A stretch of DNA of 64,000 nt. It comes from Flavobacteriaceae bacterium (lineage in GTDB: Bacteria; Bacteroidota; Bacteroidia; Flavobacteriales; Flavobacteriaceae). How positions within the stretch are numbered: the first letter of the stretch is position 1; the number at the start of each line of letters is the position of its first letter. Both the position numbers and the translations under genes were made by a program. Below, piece by piece: positions 22,358 to 31,346 of the stretch. The stretch is taken from positions 54,483-118,482 of the forward strand of contig PBNJ01000008.1 of the NCBI GenBank assembly GCA_002723075.1, read 5' to 3'. Under the pieces are notes generated by a model that was not told where the DNA came from, did no database searches, and saw only the letters and a program-made list of their open reading frames with translations.

Positions 22358-22447
22358 CGAATACAGATTGTTAGATTTGTAACAAAAATAATCAATAGAT
22401 TTAGCAGTAACCCTTTTATTTTCACAATTTTTACTGATATTTGCACC

Positions 22448-22513
22448 GTGATTTTAAAAAGACACTTCTCGTTAACTCCACGCCGTCCGCGTCGCCCCTT
22501 TGGGGGTATATAG
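22448..22513 (+). promoter_or_regulatory. Candidate Arg-rich leader peptide (V/M)ILKRHFSLTPRRPRRPFGGI* upstream of the arginine operon
   Basis: 21-codon ORF from GTG 22448 with 5 Arg codons (4 in RRPRR); preceded by GATATTTGCACC promoter-like sequence; 72 bp before the GNAT gene. Confidence 0.4.
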
Positions 22514-22585
22514 TCTTTAGGGAGCTATGGTGCGTCCAGCTTCGTCTTCAACTTCATCTTTTTTTCAATTCAAATTCACAGCACA

Positions 22586-23197
22586 ATGAACATTGTCATT
22601 GCAGGCAAGTCGCATATACAGTATGCAAAGCAAATTTCGGAGCTAATCGCTTCCTCCGCTCAAGTAAGAGGGACAGGGATTGCGCGGCGCACACCAGAGT
22701 ATATTGTCAGTAAAATTGAGAATAAGAACGCAATAATTGCCTTGGACGGTGATGTTTTTTCTGGTTTTTGCTATATCGAAGTTTGGGGACACAACAAATA
22801 CGTAGCTCATTCGGGTTTGATTGTTGCACCAGAGTACAGAGGAAAAGGACTGGCAAAATCTATTAAAACAAAAATCTTTGACTATTCCAGAGAAAAATAT
22901 CCCGATGCCAAAGTCTTTGGGATTACCACAGGTCTCCCTGTGATGAAAATCAATTATGAACTCGGCTACAGGCCCGTTACGTTTTCTGAATTGACAGATG
23001 ACCCTGCGTTTTGGAAGGGCTGTCAAACTTGTAAAAATTACGATGTCCTCACAAGGACCGATCACAAAATGTGTTTGTGTACGGGGATGCTCTATGACCC
23101 ACAAGCAGATGCAGAAGAAAAGACCTATGACAATGCCGTTATGAGTCGATTGAACAAAATCAAACAATCATTGTTTCTAAATAAGAAAAAAGCATGA
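22586..23197 (+). CDS. GNAT family N-acetyltransferase, first gene of the arginine operon (candidate N-acyl-glutamate synthase)
   Basis: HSGLIVAPEYRGKGLAKSIKTKIF acyl-CoA motif; C-terminal CQTCKNYDVLTRTDHKMCLC; precedes argG. Confidence 0.88.
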   Translation: MNIVIAGKSHIQYAKQISELIASSAQVRGTGIARRTPEYIVSKIENKNAIIALDGDVFSGFCYIEVWGHNKYVAHSGLIVAPEYRGKGLAKSIKTKIFDYSREKYPDAKVFGITTGLPVMKINYELGYRPVTFSELTDDPAFWKGCQTCKNYDVLTRTDHKMCLCTGMLYDPQADAEEKTYDNAVMSRLNKIKQSLFLNKKKA

Positions 23198-24375
23198 AAA
23201 AGTTAGTCCTTGCCTACAGCGGAGGTCTAGACACCTCCTATTGTGTGAAACACCTCAGCCAGTTGGGTTATGAGGTTCACGCGGTGAGCGTAAATACTGG
23301 TGGTTTTGACGATGAGGAAGTCAAAGCGTTATCCGCCAAAGCCATGACTTTAGGTGCCACATCCTACAAATCGATTGATGCAGTGGAGACCTTTTATCAA
23401 AAAGTCATTCGTTTTTTGGTGTTTGGCAATGTATTGAAAAACAATACCTATCCACTTTCGGTCAGTTCCGAGCGAATTATACAAGCCGTAGAGATTGTCA
23501 ACTACGCCAAATCGATAGATGCGACCCATATTGCGCATGGCAGCACGGGTGCTGGAAACGATCAGGTTCGATTTGACTTGATTTTTCAAACCCTAGCGCC
23601 AAACATTGAAATCATCACACCGATTCGCGATCAAAAGTTGTCGAGAGAAGATGAGATTGCCTTTCTCAAGTCTCACGGGGTTGAAATGGAATGGGCAAAA
23701 GCACAATATTCTGTCAACAAAGGACTTTGGGGTACGAGTGTCGGAGGAAAAGAAACGCTGGAATCTAAAGAACCGCTCCCAGAAGAGGCCTATCCAAGTC
23801 CATTGACCGAAAAGCAATCCACTAAAATTGCTCTGCAGTTTACAAATGGAGAATTTTCGGGAATTAACGGCAAACAAATGGATACAGTTTCTGCCATTAA
23901 AGCTCTCAATAAAATCGCATCTGGTTATGCAATTGGAAGAGATATTCATGTCGGCGATACAATTATCGGCATCAAAGGAAGAGTTGGCTTTGAGGCAGCT
24001 GCTCCACTGTTAATCATCAAGGCACATCATTTGCTCGAAAAACACACCTTGAGCAAATGGCAACAACAGCAAAAAGAACAACTCGCAAGTTTTTACGGGA
24101 TGCATTTACACGAAGGACATTATTTAGATCCTGTCTTGCGAGATATTGAGGCTTTTATGGAAAGTTCGCAAAAAATGGTGACAGGAACCGTTTTTATCAC
24201 GCTTCACCCCTATCGATTTACACTGGATGGTATCGAATCAGCTCACGATTTAATGGATTACTCTTTTGGAAGCTATGGCGAGATGAACCGCAACTGGACG
24301 AGTGAAGATGCCAAAGGATTTATCTCCGTTACCGCAAACGCAACTAAAATTTACAACCATGTCAACAACAGCTAA
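23194..24375 (+). CDS. argG: Argininosuccinate synthase
   Basis: KKLVLAYSGGLDTSYCVKHL, AHGSTGAGNDQVRFDL, EITPIRDQKLSREDE. Confidence 0.95.
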   Translation: MKKLVLAYSGGLDTSYCVKHLSQLGYEVHAVSVNTGGFDDEEVKALSAKAMTLGATSYKSIDAVETFYQKVIRFLVFGNVLKNNTYPLSVSSERIIQAVEIVNYAKSIDATHIAHGSTGAGNDQVRFDLIFQTLAPNIEIITPIRDQKLSREDEIAFLKSHGVEMEWAKAQYSVNKGLWGTSVGGKETLESKEPLPEEAYPSPLTEKQSTKIALQFTNGEFSGINGKQMDTVSAIKALNKIASGYAIGRDIHVGDTIIGIKGRVGFEAAAPLLIIKAHHLLEKHTLSKWQQQQKEQLASFYGMHLHEGHYLDPVLRDIEAFMESSQKMVTGTVFITLHPYRFTLDGIESAHDLMDYSFGSYGEMNRNWTSEDAKGFISVTANATKIYNHVNNS

Positions 24376-25348
24376 AAAGACGGTTGGAGTCATCGGCGGA
24401 TCTGGTTACACGGGTGGTGAGCTCCTTCGCTTGTTGGTCAATCATCCATTGGTTACCATTGATTTTGTGTATAGCAGAACTCGGCCCGGTACGCTGCTCA
24501 CCGAAACCCATACGGATTTGATCGGGCAAACGAATTTGCAGTTTACGGATGAAGTCAATCCAGACGTGGATGTCTTGTTCTTGTGTTTGGGGCATGGACT
24601 TTCGGGAACTTTCTTACACGAAAACCCGATGAACGACAACACCAAAATTATTGATCTTAGTAATGAATTCCGATTGCAGAAAGACCATCATTTTTTAGGC
24701 AAGTCCTATGTGTATGGCTTACCTGAATTTCAAAAGCAAAACATTAAGTCCGCACAAGCGGTTGCCAATCCTGGTTGCTTTGCTACAGCGATTCAATTGG
24801 CGCTTTTGCCCCTTGCCAAAGAAGGACTTCTACAAACCGACGTTCAAGTGCATGCCATCACAGGAAGTACGGGGGCTGGTGTAAAACCCTCTGCCACTTC
24901 GCATTTCAGCTGGCGAAACAACAATGTGTCATGGTATAAACCATTTACCCATCAGCATTTGGGCGAAATTGGTGAAACCTTACAAGCCCTACAAGCAGAT
25001 GTTCCCGAAATCAATTTTTTACCGATTCGAGGAAACTTTACCAGAGGGATATTTGCCAGTGTGTACACGACTTTTGAGGGAGATCTTGACGATGCCTATT
25101 CGCTGTATGAGCAATTTTATGCCAATAGCTCGTTTACGCACACAAGCACAAAGGCTTTGGATTTAAAAATGGTGGTCAATACCAACAATTGTCTGATTCA
25201 TCTACATAAACACAAAGATTTATTACTGATTACCAGTTGTTTGGACAACCTTCTCAAAGGAGCATCAGGACAAGCCGTTGAAAACATGAATTTGATGTTT
25301 TCTTGGCCTCAAACAACTGGATTACAACTTAAAGCAAACGTTCATTAA
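24359..25348 (+). CDS. argC: N-acetyl-gamma-glutamyl-phosphate reductase
   Basis: TVGVIGGSGYTGGELLRLLVNHP, VANPGCFATAIQLALLPL, GSTGAGVKPSATSHFSWR; start ATG 24359 overlaps argG by 17 bp. Confidence 0.94.
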   Translation: MSTTAKKTVGVIGGSGYTGGELLRLLVNHPLVTIDFVYSRTRPGTLLTETHTDLIGQTNLQFTDEVNPDVDVLFLCLGHGLSGTFLHENPMNDNTKIIDLSNEFRLQKDHHFLGKSYVYGLPEFQKQNIKSAQAVANPGCFATAIQLALLPLAKEGLLQTDVQVHAITGSTGAGVKPSATSHFSWRNNNVSWYKPFTHQHLGEIGETLQALQADVPEINFLPIRGNFTRGIFASVYTTFEGDLDDAYSLYEQFYANSSFTHTSTKALDLKMVVNTNNCLIHLHKHKDLLLITSCLDNLLKGASGQAVENMNLMFSWPQTTGLQLKANVH

Positions 25349-25359
25349 ACACGAATACT

Positions 25360-26154
25360 ATGAAAATCGCAATTATCGGCGCTGGAAATCTTGGATTGAG
25401 TATTGCAAAAGGGCTGCTGACCAACAACATCATTACGCAGTTATACCTCACCAAACGCAACACCTCTTCGATTTCAGATTGGAGCGAGTACAAAAACACA
25501 CATATCACGGATGACAATGCGGAAGCCATTTCATCTTCTGACGTTATTATACTTGCTGTGCAACCTGCTCAACTCAGCGAAGTTCTTTCTGAAAACGCGC
25601 AACTATTTAACGAAAAACATGTTTTGATTTCAACAGTAACTGGTTTTTCAATTGAGAAAATGGAAGCCATAGTCGGAAACGACAAATTCATCATTCGATC
25701 GATGCCAAACACCGCGATATCGGTTGGTAAATCGATGACATGTTTATGTGCAAACGGCAAAGGGAAACAACGTTTATCACTTGCAGAAGCGATTTACAAC
25801 TCCCTCGGTACAAGTATCATCATCGACGAAAAGCATATGCGTGCTGCAACGGTCATTTGCGCATCAGGAATTGCTTTTTGGATGCGACTGATTCGCGCTA
25901 CGACTCAAGGGGGCGTTCAACTTGGCTTTGATGCGGAAGAAGCGATGAAAATGTCGATGTACACCGCTTTGGGTGCCGCTACACTGCTGATTGAGACCGA
26001 CTCTCATCCAGAGCAAGAAATCGATAAGGTCACCACACCGCAGGGGTGCACAATCGAAGGGCTTAACGAAATGGAGCATCAAGGACTGAGTTCGTCTTTG
26101 ATCAAGGGAATCGTCGCTTCGTTCAATAAAATAAATGTGATTAGTAAAGGATAA
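25360..26154 (+). CDS. proC: Pyrroline-5-carboxylate reductase
   Basis: KIAIIGAGNLGLSIAKGLL, IRSMPNTAISVGKSMT, VTTPQGCTIEGLNEME. Confidence 0.92.
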   Translation: MKIAIIGAGNLGLSIAKGLLTNNIITQLYLTKRNTSSISDWSEYKNTHITDDNAEAISSSDVIILAVQPAQLSEVLSENAQLFNEKHVLISTVTGFSIEKMEAIVGNDKFIIRSMPNTAISVGKSMTCLCANGKGKQRLSLAEAIYNSLGTSIIIDEKHMRAATVICASGIAFWMRLIRATTQGGVQLGFDAEEAMKMSMYTALGAATLLIETDSHPEQEIDKVTTPQGCTIEGLNEMEHQGLSSSLIKGIVASFNKINVISKG

Positions 26155-26158
26155 AACC

Positions 26159-27283
26159 ATGCCCTTATTTGATGTATATCCCTTGTATGACTTAGAGCCC
26201 ACCAAAGCGCGTGGGGTGTATGTCTATGATAAAAAAGGGAAAAAGTATCTCGATTTGTACGGCGGTCATGCAGTGATTTCGATCGGCCATGGTCATCGAA
26301 CCTATACCCGGATGTTAAGAAAACAACTCCATCGTATCGGATTTTACTCCAATGCGGTTCAAAACCCACTGCAAGAAAAACTATCCACTGAAATCAATCG
26401 GCAGTCGGGTTGCACCAATTATGAGTTGTTTATGTGCAGCTCGGGTGCAGAAGCAAATGAAAATGCGCTCAAACTGGCCTCGTTTCACACAGGTAAATCA
26501 AGAGTAATTGCGTTTGACAATGCCTTTCATGGGCGTACCAGTGCTGCAGTGGCTGCCACCGACAACAAAAACATCCAGGCGCCTCTAAACACCCAACAAC
26601 AAGTGGATTTTATTCCATTTAACGACGTTGATGCCCTCGAGAAAGAGCTGGCTAAAGGAGATGTCTGTGCCGTGATTTTTGAGGCCATACAGGGGGTTGG
26701 TGGTTTGGATGAGCCAACAGCAGCATTTGTTGCGCAGATGGAAACACTTTGTGAAACCAATCAAACTTGCTTGATTGCAGACGAGGTACAATCTGGGTTT
26801 GGACGTAGTGGTGACTTCTTTGCCTTTCAGAAATACAACATCAATCCCCATATTATCAGTATTGCCAAAGGCATGGGAAATGGCTTTCCCGTTGGAGGAA
26901 TCCTTGTCCATCCAGTCATCAAGGCCAAGTATGGACTGTTGGGAACAACTTTTGGTGGAAACCATCTTGCTTGCAGTGCTTCCCTAGCGGTTTTACAGGT
27001 ATTGGAAAAAGAAAAACTTTGCGATCACGCCAAAGCAATGGGCGAATACTTTGTTCAAAGAGCGAAAGAACTCGCGTTTGTGAAAACCATTAAAGGAAGA
27101 GGACTGATGCTTGGACTGGAGTTTGAGTACGAAGTGGGCGCTTTGCGAAAAGAATTGATTTTTAAACACCGTATTTTTACAGGAGGGAGTAGCAACAAAA
27201 ACCTGATTCGAATTCTACCCCCACTCAATATAAAGCAAAAGCATTTAGATCAATTGTTTACTGCCTTAAACGCATGTCACTGA
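26159..27283 (+). CDS. argD: Acetylornithine/N-succinylornithine aminotransferase (class III PLP aminotransferase)
   Basis: YLDLYGGHAVISIGHGH, CSSGAEANENALKLAS, LIADEVQSGFGRSGDFFAFQ, SIAKGMGNGFPVGGILV. Confidence 0.92.
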   Translation: MPLFDVYPLYDLEPTKARGVYVYDKKGKKYLDLYGGHAVISIGHGHRTYTRMLRKQLHRIGFYSNAVQNPLQEKLSTEINRQSGCTNYELFMCSSGAEANENALKLASFHTGKSRVIAFDNAFHGRTSAAVAATDNKNIQAPLNTQQQVDFIPFNDVDALEKELAKGDVCAVIFEAIQGVGGLDEPTAAFVAQMETLCETNQTCLIADEVQSGFGRSGDFFAFQKYNINPHIISIAKGMGNGFPVGGILVHPVIKAKYGLLGTTFGGNHLACSASLAVLQVLEKEKLCDHAKAMGEYFVQRAKELAFVKTIKGRGLMLGLEFEYEVGALRKELIFKHRIFTGGSSNKNLIRILPPLNIKQKHLDQLFTALNACH

Positions 27284-28230
27284 TGAAAAATTTTATCACC
27301 TTACAAGACTTAGTCAATCCGATCAAAACCATTGCGCTTGCCAAAAGCTGCAAACAAGATCCTTTTGCACATGACCATTTGGGACAACGCAAAACGATTG
27401 GTTTATTGTTCTTCAATCCGAGTTTACGAACACGACTTAGCACCCAAAAAGCAGCACGAAACCTCGGTTTGGATGTGATGGTGATGAACTTTAGCAATGA
27501 GGCCTGGGCAATCGAGTACGAAAACGAAACCATCATGAGTGGACTTCGGTCAGAGCACGCAAAAGAAGCTGCACAGGTTGTATCCCAATATTGTGATTTT
27601 GTTGCGATTCGGGCGTTTGCTTCCTTGACCGACAAAAAGCGTGATGAGGAAGAACAAGTCCTTCGAAAGTTTGCGGAGTTTGCCACGATTCCCATCATCA
27701 ATATGGAAAGTGCAACTGCACATCCCTTACAAGCTTTGGCAGATGGGCTTACCATACACGAGCAAGTGGTGGTCAAAAAGCCAAAAATTGTATTGAGTTG
27801 GGCGCCTCATCCAAAGGCACTCCCCCACGCGGTTGCCAACTCTTTTATCGGATTGATGAATCACACTGAAGCAGACTTTGTCATCACTCATCCAGAGGGT
27901 TATGACCTCAATCCTGCTATTGTTGGGAATCATACAGTAAACTACAATCAGGAAGAAGCATTGGCAGGTGCTGATGTGGTTTATGTCAAAAACTGGTGTT
28001 CCTACACGGATTATGGAGCGATTTTGCGAACAGACAACAAGTGGATGATGACACGTGCGAAAATGGAACGCACCAACGATGCCTTTTTTATGCATTGTCT
28101 TCCCATCAGAAGAAACGTGGTTGCATCAGACGGCGTTTTGGATCACCCAAAGTCATTGGTCATCGAACAAGCCAATAACAGAACTTTTGCTGCACAGGCC
28201 GTTTTACAAGAATTTTTAACCCATGGATAA
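27283..28230 (+). CDS. argF': N-acyl-ornithine carbamoyltransferase (AOTCase/SOTCase clade, ArgF')
   Basis: FFNPSLRTRLSTQKAARNLG, HPLQALADGLTIHE, VLSWAPHPKALPHAVANSFI, FFMHCLPIRRNVVASDGVLD; ATG 27283 overlaps the argD stop (ORF track start 27274). Confidence 0.92.
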   Translation: MKNFITLQDLVNPIKTIALAKSCKQDPFAHDHLGQRKTIGLLFFNPSLRTRLSTQKAARNLGLDVMVMNFSNEAWAIEYENETIMSGLRSEHAKEAAQVVSQYCDFVAIRAFASLTDKKRDEEEQVLRKFAEFATIPIINMESATAHPLQALADGLTIHEQVVVKKPKIVLSWAPHPKALPHAVANSFIGLMNHTEADFVITHPEGYDLNPAIVGNHTVNYNQEEALAGADVVYVKNWCSYTDYGAILRTDNKWMMTRAKMERTNDAFFMHCLPIRRNVVASDGVLDHPKSLVIEQANNRTFAAQAVLQEFLTHG

Positions 28231-28999
28231 GCTAGACATTGTCAAACTTGGTGGCGAATTGCTAGAAAGCAGCGAAAATATGAAGACTGCCTTATCTTCG
28301 TTTCATGCTCTCTCTGGGCACAAAATTCTCGTTCATGGAGGTGGCAGCCAAGCCAGTGCACTCTGTGAAAAACTCGGCATAGAAGCCAAGATGCACAACG
28401 GAAGACGAATCACCGATGATGACACACTTGAAGTAGCCGTCATGGTTTATGCTGGTCTTGCCAACAAAACAGTCGTAGCGGGTCTCCAAAAACTCGGCAC
28501 CAACGCCATTGGCCTTACAGGAGCAGACGCCAACCTGATACAGGCAGACAAACGTGTTGTACAAGATATTGACTATGGTTGGGCTGGGGATATCCGCTCG
28601 GTCAACACTGCAAATCTAAAGGCCTTACTGTCGATTGGGTTATCTCCTGTGTTTTGCGCGATTACCCATGACCAAAACGGGCAACTGCTCAATACAAATG
28701 CCGATACCATCGCTGCCACTGTCGCCAGTGCTTTAGCTGCGGATTACGAAGTGCATTTGCACTATTGTTTTGGGCATGCAGGTGTATTAAAAGACATCAA
28801 AGACGAAAACAGTGTGATTCCCACCATTCAAGTCGGTGAAGTGGACGAACTACACCACAAAGGCATTATCGCTGATGGGATGCTTCCAAAACTGCACAAT
28901 GGCGTGATGGCACTTCAGCATGGTGTGCAAGCAGTCACTATTGAAAAACCAGAGACTGTTCACAACGAACAGGCGCTCAAAACAACAGTAATCGGATGA
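28223..28999 (+). CDS. argB: Acetylglutamate kinase family protein
   Basis: IVKLGGELLES, ILVHGGGSQASALCEKLGIEAKMHNGRRITDDDTLEVAVMVYAGLANKTVVAGLQ. Confidence 0.93.
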   Translation: MDKLDIVKLGGELLESSENMKTALSSFHALSGHKILVHGGGSQASALCEKLGIEAKMHNGRRITDDDTLEVAVMVYAGLANKTVVAGLQKLGTNAIGLTGADANLIQADKRVVQDIDYGWAGDIRSVNTANLKALLSIGLSPVFCAITHDQNGQLLNTNADTIAATVASALAADYEVHLHYCFGHAGVLKDIKDENSVIPTIQVGEVDELHHKGIIADGMLPKLHNGVMALQHGVQAVTIEKPETVHNEQALKTTVIG

Positions 29000-30060
29000 G
29001 TACAGACCACTTAGCAGATGATGTGATTGGGTTGCTCATGCAACTGATTGAAATCCCTTCCTTCTCTGGAGAGGAATCTCAAACGGCGGATTGTATCCAA
29101 AACTGGCTACACAGTAAAGGGGTTGAGACCCAGCGCATTCAAAACAACGTCTTTGCTTTTAACAAGCACTACGACCCAGCTAAACCCAACTTGCTTTTAA
29201 ACTCACATCACGATACCGTAAGACCCAATAGGGCCTATACGCGCGACCCACATAAAGCAGAGATTATCGATGGAAAACTGTTTGGATTGGGCAGCAATGA
29301 TGCTGGTGGTGCTTTGGTATCCTTACTCGGACTGTTTGCCCATTTCTACGAATCGAAAAACCTTACCTATAACCTGATTGTAGCCGCGACAGCAGAAGAA
29401 GAAAGCTCAGGGCCAAACGGATTAAACAGCTTGCTGAAAGACCTCCCTGAAATCGATGTGGCTATCGTTGGCGAACCCACACAAATGCAATTGGCCATCG
29501 CCGAGAAAGGGCTTGTCGTTTTTGATGCAGTGGTAAAAGGAACAGCTGGACATGCCGCACATCCCAACAACGACAACCCGATTATCAAGACTATGGATGT
29601 GATGCAGTGGTTTCAAAACCTTTCGTTTGACAAAGTGTCAGATACCTTGGGACCTGTTAAACTCACCATCACCCAAATCAACGCTGGCAGTCAGCACAAT
29701 GTCGTACCTGCACAGGTAAATCTGGTGTTGGATGTACGCGTCAACGAATGCTATACCAATCAAGAAATTGCAGATTTGGTCGGTCAGGCACCATGTGAGG
29801 TAAGCGCTCGCTCTTTACGATTACAGTCTTCCTCAATCGATAAAAACCATCCGCTAGTTCTTGCTGGAGTTGCGATGGGGAGAAACACCTATGGCTCGCC
29901 CACCCTATCCGATCAAGCAGCCCTATCCTGTCCGTCGCTCAAACTCGGTCCTGGGGACTCGACAAGATCACATACGGCAGACGAATTTATTTATGAAAAT
30001 GAAATCAAAGAAGCGGTTCGCTTATATATCGAATTGCTCGACCAAGTAATAACATTATGA
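28996..30060 (+). CDS. argE: M20 family deacylase (acetylornithine deacetylase-like)
   Basis: IPSFSGEES, LLLNSHHDTVRP, GLGSNDAGGALVSLLG, VAATAEEESSGPNGL. Confidence 0.9.
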   Translation: MSTDHLADDVIGLLMQLIEIPSFSGEESQTADCIQNWLHSKGVETQRIQNNVFAFNKHYDPAKPNLLLNSHHDTVRPNRAYTRDPHKAEIIDGKLFGLGSNDAGGALVSLLGLFAHFYESKNLTYNLIVAATAEEESSGPNGLNSLLKDLPEIDVAIVGEPTQMQLAIAEKGLVVFDAVVKGTAGHAAHPNNDNPIIKTMDVMQWFQNLSFDKVSDTLGPVKLTITQINAGSQHNVVPAQVNLVLDVRVNECYTNQEIADLVGQAPCEVSARSLRLQSSSIDKNHPLVLAGVAMGRNTYGSPTLSDQAALSCPSLKLGPGDSTRSHTADEFIYENEIKEAVRLYIELLDQVITL

Positions 30061-31346
30061 AAATCTGGCAAAAGAAAGGAACAAAAGTAAGAGACCATAT
30101 CGACCAATTCACGGTTGGTGATGACCGCCAATGGGATTTGCGACTTGCTCCCTATGATATCATCGCATCTCAAGCCCATGCAAAAATGTTGGGGAAGGTT
30201 GGCTTGCTTTCCCAATCCGAAGTCGATCAGCTCATTGAAGGACTTACTGCATTGTCTACAGAAGTTAAAGAAGGTAGGTTTACGATTTCTGACGATTTTG
30301 AGGACGTTCACTCCAAAATAGAGTACGAATTGACAAAGACTTATGGAGACGTTGGTAAAAAAATACACACTGCACGCTCGAGAAACGATCAGGTATTGGT
30401 TGCTATGCAGCTCTTTCTTAAAGATGAAATTCAAGAAATCAAGCAACTTGTCAAAGCGTTATTTGAGCAGTATATGACTTTGGCAGATCGGTATAAAGAT
30501 CAGTTGTTACCAGGATACACTCATCTGCAAATCGCCATGCCATCTTCCTTTGGGTTGTGGTTTTCTGCCTATGCGGAAATTCTCTCCGATGAGGTACTTT
30601 TACTCAATACCGTTCACGCCCTTTGTGACCAAAATCCACTCGGGAGTGCTGCTGGCTACGGCAGTTCCTTCCCGATAGACCGACAGGATACCACAGCAAC
30701 GCTCGGGTTTGACACTCTGAAATACAATGTTGTAGCAGCACAAATGAGTCGGGGAAAACTCGAAAAAAACTTGGCACAAGCCATTGGTAGTCTCGCTGGA
30801 ACGCTGAGTCGGTTTTCGATGGATGTCTGTTTGTATATGAGTCAAAACTTTGATTTTATCTCCTTTCCAGATGACATCACAACGGGATCTAGTATCATGC
30901 CACACAAAAAGAACCCGGATGTGTTTGAACTCATCCGTGGAAAATGCAACAAGCTCCAAGCGCTTCCTAACGAGTTGGCGATGATGAGTACCAATTTGCC
31001 CAGTGGCTACCACAGAGAAATGCAATTGTTTAAAGGACCGATCATGCAAGCTATCGATGAAATCAAAAGCTGTTTATCGATGACCACTTCGAGCATAGCA
31101 GAAGTACTGGTCAAACAAGATATTCTCTCAGATGAAAAGTACACCCATGTATTTAGTGTAGATGCCTTGCACGAACTCATTCAACAAGGAGTTCCGTTTC
31201 GGGATGCCTATGTCCAGATTGGAGAAGCCATCAACAAGGAGGAATTTGTTCCTCCCAAAATGGCAAAGCACACCCATAGCGGAAGCATTGGTAATTTGGA
31301 ACTCGGCGCCATACGCGAGAAATTTACAAAGTACTTCGAAAAATAA
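30057..31346 (+). CDS. argH: Argininosuccinate lyase
   Basis: FEDVHSKIEYELTKTYGDVGKKIHTARSRNDQVLVAMQLFLK, GSSIMPHKKNPDVFELIRGK. Confidence 0.95.
   Translation: MKIWQKKGTKVRDHIDQFTVGDDRQWDLRLAPYDIIASQAHAKMLGKVGLLSQSEVDQLIEGLTALSTEVKEGRFTISDDFEDVHSKIEYELTKTYGDVGKKIHTARSRNDQVLVAMQLFLKDEIQEIKQLVKALFEQYMTLADRYKDQLLPGYTHLQIAMPSSFGLWFSAYAEILSDEVLLLNTVHALCDQNPLGSAAGYGSSFPIDRQDTTATLGFDTLKYNVVAAQMSRGKLEKNLAQAIGSLAGTLSRFSMDVCLYMSQNFDFISFPDDITTGSSIMPHKKNPDVFELIRGKCNKLQALPNELAMMSTNLPSGYHREMQLFKGPIMQAIDEIKSCLSMTTSSIAEVLVKQDILSDEKYTHVFSVDALHELIQQGVPFRDAYVQIGEAINKEEFVPPKMAKHTHSGSIGNLELGAIREKFTKYFEK

Follow-up and report, generated by a model that had tools for sequence, protein, structure and literature searches.

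A probable ribosome-mediated arginine attenuator ahead of the arginine biosynthesis operon of Flavobacteriaceae

The locus described here lies in a 64,000-nt stretch of contig PBNJ01000008.1 from a Flavobacteriaceae bacterium (assembly GCA_002723075.1, positions 54,483 to 118,482 of the forward strand), hereafter called the window. A divergent chorismate-binding (pabB-like) gene on the left and an arginine operon on the right flank a short leader ORF. The operon, on the + strand, begins with a gene (22586-23197) that a first-pass annotation described as a GNAT-like acetyltransferase; at 1e-10 neither Pfam nor NCBIfam matches it, and it is kept together with argG across Flavobacteriaceae. The genes that follow, argG-argC-proC-argD-argF (N-acetylornithine type)-argB-argE-argH (23194-31346, + strand), were recognized by Pfam and NCBIfam matches; where a Pfam match was at class level, the single-gene name was assigned via the operon context. 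The leader ORF itself (22448-22513, + strand) runs from a GTG (22448-22450) to a TAG (22511-22513), and its 21 codons encode VILKRHFSLTPRRPRRPFGGI before the stop; homologous leaders exist elsewhere. As reported in the first-pass annotation, five of these codons specify arginine: AGA at 22460 and four in the putative sensor stretch CGC CGT CCG CGT CGC (RRPRR, 22481-22495).

The promoter-like sequence noticed earlier right before the GTG, GATATTTG (22436-22443, + strand), fits the Bacteroidota-type -7 box TAnnTTTG at seven of eight bases, and the GTG begins 4 nt past it. The consensus and its position are taken from F. psychrophilum, for which the published study has the motif spanning -12 to -5 (PMC9723704), and the transcription start in the window is accordingly a prediction from the box. 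Since the F. psychrophilum box ends at -5, transcription is predicted to start at the GTG itself, at about 22448, so that the GTG-started leader would probably be leaderless; a start downstream of 22513, named beforehand as an argument against the leader, is not what the box predicts.

In its arginine content by itself, the leader is just mildly unusual, and such ORFs arise by chance: when short ORFs of 10-45 aa were counted in all six frames of the window, 9 of 1301 had 5 or more Arg at a share of 20% or higher. The case is thus carried by position and conservation. Across 11 congeneric genomes, the start codon (GTG or ATG) lies exactly 4 nt after TTTG in every case, and the ORF, free of indels and closed by TAG or TAA, has the same length and keeps its Arg run. 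The RRPRRPFGG codons and the two hairpins described below are nearly invariant in these genomes, while the flanks diverge. Conservation, within the genus and beyond it, is decisive in marking the leader ORF as more than a chance reading frame. The same genus alignment disposed of a downstream in-frame second ORF (ATGGTGCGT...), whose frame is lost across relatives. A search for the exact RPRRPFGG codon pattern in 395 genomes of the class and in a genome collection proved genus-restricted, its other matches being judged chance by taxonomy; the wider family of leaders emerged instead by inspecting the sequence upstream of the GNAT gene.

The CCCC-TTT-GGGG noted near the end of the ORF is present, and a first hairpin, SL1 (GCCCC-UUUG-GGGGU, 22494-22507, + strand), overlaps the end of the Arg codons. 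Across the family it reads CCC-nnnn-GGG, and its loop usually contains the stop codon; in the genus of the window, the leader frame continues a few codons past SL1. A second hairpin, SL2 (GGAGCU-AU-GG-UGCGU-CC-AGCUUC, 22521-22543, + strand), consists in its family form of a stem of 5-6 bp, in most cases a bulged A, and then GG-UGNGU-CC. Of the two pairings suggested for GGAGCTA in the first-pass annotation, the one with AGCTTC holds, GGAGCT forming the SL2 stem with it, whereas the one with TAACTCC is unconserved even within the genus.

Both hairpins were supported by comparison. In an alignment of 92 distinct sequences, 99.0% of cells pair, the CCC/GGG pairing of SL1 is conserved, and compensatory changes occur at all six outer pairs of SL2, providing the covarying stems upstream of GNAT-argG that had been proposed as a check. 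There are 90 double-change cells in SL2, as against 16.4 after shuffling, and the signal disappears when the partner is slid out of register. Since the model had shaped this alignment, stems were also counted independently; this gave 475 paired positions versus 284 with shuffled arms and 301 when read on the other strand; the SL2 pairing therefore reads as RNA of the + strand. The single-sequence folding energy is unremarkable (z -0.36), so the structural claim rests on covariation. The SL2 loop positions, apart from the middle one, are 96-100% conserved over 88 family loci.

These data bear on the reading of the short ORF as fortuitous and of the conserved block as a DNA operator. The chance occurrence of Arg-rich ORFs at the frequency given above would suit such a reading, as would the fact that SL2 is an inverted repeat. 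In an SL2 operator, though, arms that covary around a fixed centre, with a pairing that reads as one-strand RNA, would not be expected; Arg-rich leaders moreover recur at this place with different sequences, and no ArgR was found in the sampled genomes of the family (see below). The operator reading is already largely refuted by the covariation, and we consider it highly improbable.

A covariance model, R2, was built here on SL1/SL2 and searched against 251 Flavobacteriaceae genomes, with matches in 172 of them. Ninety R2 loci were checked: GNAT-argG follows on the same strand in 88, and in the other two argG follows with no recognized GNAT gene. Cross-reading the R2 and GNAT searches places the element in 156 of 169 GNAT-bearing genomes. 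Among the 16 genomes with an R2 match and without GNAT, 14 matches are at noise level (E 0.001 or worse) and two are strong, with argG downstream. Conversely, 13 genomes have GNAT and no R2 match; an Arg-rich leader is present in each of the four that were inspected, and the hairpin shape differs where R2 fails. In the wider order beyond Flavobacteriaceae, R2 gives only noise-level matches. No Rfam 15 family, T-box and other cis-regulators included, matches the element; a simple covariance model finds it in about two thirds of the sampled genomes. Nor did we find a description of it in the open literature searched, where subscription journals are poorly covered.

Across the 88 family loci, it is the leader frame that carries the arginine codons (21.6% Arg, versus 4.7% and 3.0% in the other two frames), and this frame is open over a median of 41 codons, compared with 14 and 14. 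Its end is mostly R(R)RP-stop with the stop inside SL1, most often directly after CGC CCG and about 24-27 nt ahead of the SL2 loop. CGU and CGC make up 88% of the leader Arg codons, as against 45% in the window genes, and apart from its Arg residues the peptide is free to vary. Arg-rich ORFs thus precede the operon across Flavobacteriaceae, their absence from relatives having been named in advance as a refutation; those of other genera differ, for example MNTKAHNFLITRSSFPVTRFVPTRRRP, MRRFYPRRP or MHTSNKTNQISLRRRRPMRRR, each followed by a stop codon. By a simple rule, 39 of the 88 loci have a second Arg-rich ORF farther upstream, in most cases at a distance of about 200 nt from the first, and many of these second leaders resemble MK.LKNKIR...P.LP.R.RRR. 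In one genome (L263), the upstream Arg-rich leader is kept although SL1/SL2 has decayed. The second leader, present for instance at L197, L182 and L220, is followed by a conserved ACGUAAUUUUAAUUUUUUUCAUAGUGU-like stretch.

The same evidence weighs on whether SL1-SL2 could be a metabolite riboswitch responding to arginine or to one of its precursors, with the ORF secondary. Two adjacent hairpins with strongly conserved bases ahead of a biosynthetic operon would be in keeping with this, but in the SL1 part the conservation is accounted for by the Arg/Pro codons and the CCC/GGG stem. A riboswitch does not predict the frame-specific Arg excess, the open frame or the second leader of 39/88 loci, and at L263 the upstream leader outlives the degraded hairpins. 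We regard this explanation as improbable.

Textbook accounts of how bacteria control arginine synthesis usually turn on the ArgR repressor. ArgR (PF01316) was detected in none of 61 sampled Flavobacteriaceae genomes, including that of the window (about 85% complete), while 9 of 14 control genomes were positive in the same search. A large family without detectable ArgR appears to use leader-peptide sensing instead. The genome of the window also carries a his leader (L250, G000:C8, minus strand, about 2142-2260), encoding MKKNTHIHHLFALSQTS before its stop and preceded by a GATATTTG box, with a strong intrinsic terminator between leader and hisG; judged by its sequence, it is a textbook attenuator. 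We propose that the arg leader is very probably a ribosome-mediated arginine attenuator, and sensing by the Arg codons is its best-supported step, because these codons are kept while the peptide is otherwise free, ArgR is absent from the sampled genomes and a his attenuator exists in the same genome. On comparative grounds, its range is broader than first reported, covering most sampled Flavobacteriaceae, and it probably switches the operon on when arginine is short.

In this attenuator, transcription would begin with the leader start codon or close to it, and the leader would be translated by a ribosome while RNA polymerase advances. With ample Arg-tRNA, above all the one that decodes CGU/CGC, the ribosome would pass the Arg codons, reach the stop and be released, upon which SL1 and SL2 could fold and the operon would be kept low. 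With scarce Arg-tRNA, the ribosome would stall on CGU/CGC and cover SL1, and, by altering the downstream fold or shielding the RNA, could allow the operon to be expressed; both the stalling and the direction of control are what we infer. The off step might be due to Rho, to cleavage of the RNA or to a weak intrinsic terminator at SL1/SL2, and we lean to premature termination.

The output step departs from the textbook scheme. No canonical intrinsic terminator lies between the leader and the first gene in the window, in line with the caveat already made in the first-pass annotation, and we likewise see none gated in the textbook way. The T7 run mentioned there exists, at 22559-22565 (+ strand) and not near 22556; it stands 15 nt past SL2 and is not conserved. 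SL2 lacks a U-tract, and just 11 of 88 loci have a T-rich stretch behind it. Sites resembling terminators, for the most part SL1 with its U-rich linker, occur in 35/88 loci versus 1/88 shuffled. The stretch after SL2 is G-poor (7% G, 16% C), which may be compatible with a Rho-dependent stop. As for an antiterminator, a possible anti-SL2 fold is predicted in the window between GGGGGUAUAUAG (22502-22513) and CUAUGGUGCGUCC (22525-22537), in which the freed 3' arm of SL1 pairs with SL2 (predicted -9.3 kcal/mol in the window genus); for 9 of the 11 members of the genus, blocking the 5' arm of SL1, as if by a ribosome, is predicted to make the freed G-strand on SL2 the fold of lowest energy. Across the family, this pairing does not outperform shuffled sequence, and when pair probabilities are averaged, SL1 and SL2 alone appear. 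Pairing of the linker or the Arg codons with the SL2 loop was likewise rejected as a family-wide antiterminator, being no better than shuffled. Of the original proposal of leader-peptide attenuation, the arginine sensing is well supported by conserved, frame-specific Arg codons, whereas the textbook gated terminator is not.

Because no competing fold does better than shuffled family-wide, the near-invariant SL2 loop, which simple attenuation does not require, is left unexplained, and a recognition factor becomes a serious rival: the leader would sense arginine, with the output set by an RNA-binding protein, a nuclease or Rho/Nus pausing at SL2 rather than by a competing terminator fold. This would account for a loop that hardly changes across 88 loci on a stem remade by compensatory changes, and for the lack both of a U-tract after SL2 and of a family-wide competing fold. 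There is also a precedent in Salmonella speF, where RNase G decay is under the control of the Arg codons of orf34, and Rho termination under that of orf34 translation (PMC6386406). Less easily reconciled with such a factor are the differently shaped hairpin where R2 fails and the confinement of the SL2 core, as a non-coding hairpin, to the arg leader among the sites examined in the genome of the window. Of 17 further SL2-core sites listed in that genome, the 16 examined lie within long open frames and are mostly stemless. We rate recognition of SL2 by a factor at somewhat short of an even chance. More tentative still is the full scheme in which, family-wide in these ArgR-less bacteria and often with two leaders in series, Arg-codon stalling might control access to a GG-UGNGU-CC hairpin read by a factor, with no terminator/antiterminator pair. 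If a factor does read the SL2 loop, this would be a new output for attenuation, and cultured Flavobacteriaceae with the element would allow direct testing.

Like his/trp-type attenuators, the arg leader has a short ORF at the (predicted) transcript start with runs of cognate codons, followed by hairpins and the cognate operon, and this arrangement is conserved in relatives. Unlike them, it has no strong intrinsic terminator and no family-wide antiterminator, its stop is usually inside the first hairpin, the second loop is near-invariant and leaders are often in tandem. Arg codons in small ORFs are used elsewhere: in the Salmonella speF leader, those of orf34 (SpeFL) read arginine supply (PMC6386406), and in Staphylococcus aureus those of the small uORF rbfL make the ribosome pause under arginine shortage (PMC13009471). 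As described, speF differs in serving polyamine synthesis and in its long leader, RBS sequestering, Rho and RNase G; rbfL blocks a ribosome-binding site, represses a biofilm regulator and uses rare AGA/AGG codons. Neither controls arginine biosynthesis (PMC6386406; PMC13009471). In Pseudomonas aeruginosa, the arginine/pyrimidine gene carAB likewise has a leader peptide and attenuation ahead of it, and differs in being tied to pyrimidine control and in belonging to another phylum and gene (as cited in PMC4997734). Closer relatives are covered by the F. psychrophilum study, which speaks of "strong clues" for leader-peptide attenuation ahead of amino-acid operons; its main text names pheA and hisG elements and not an arg element (PMC9723704).

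Variants were also seen at the margins of this distribution. Upstream of the same gene, a genus that is probably Flavobacterium (L119, L122-L124) has a conserved, weaker MNKTSLHITSLSRTNRPTTSPEVRML-like leader with 2-3 Arg only and an ACUUC-UCCC-GAAGU hairpin, an architecture that differs from the SL1/SL2 element. In one family of the order (f5; L137, L139-L141), no Arg-rich leader is visible upstream of the GNAT homologue, and just a promoter-like box is found near its start codon. In several other families of the order, Arg-rich leader ORFs also precede the same operon, and these are unrelated in sequence (for example MKQVNIYTPSERPVLTIGIGRFSPLDRFRREPNRQ and MDSTLRLRRSRRRLRA, each ending in a stop). 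Those of families f15 (L126-L129), f7 (L130 and L138) and f2 (L125 and L135) come with other hairpins, which in f2 and f7 mostly have a U(A/C)CGU loop closed by U-A (GGU-UACGU-ACC-like).
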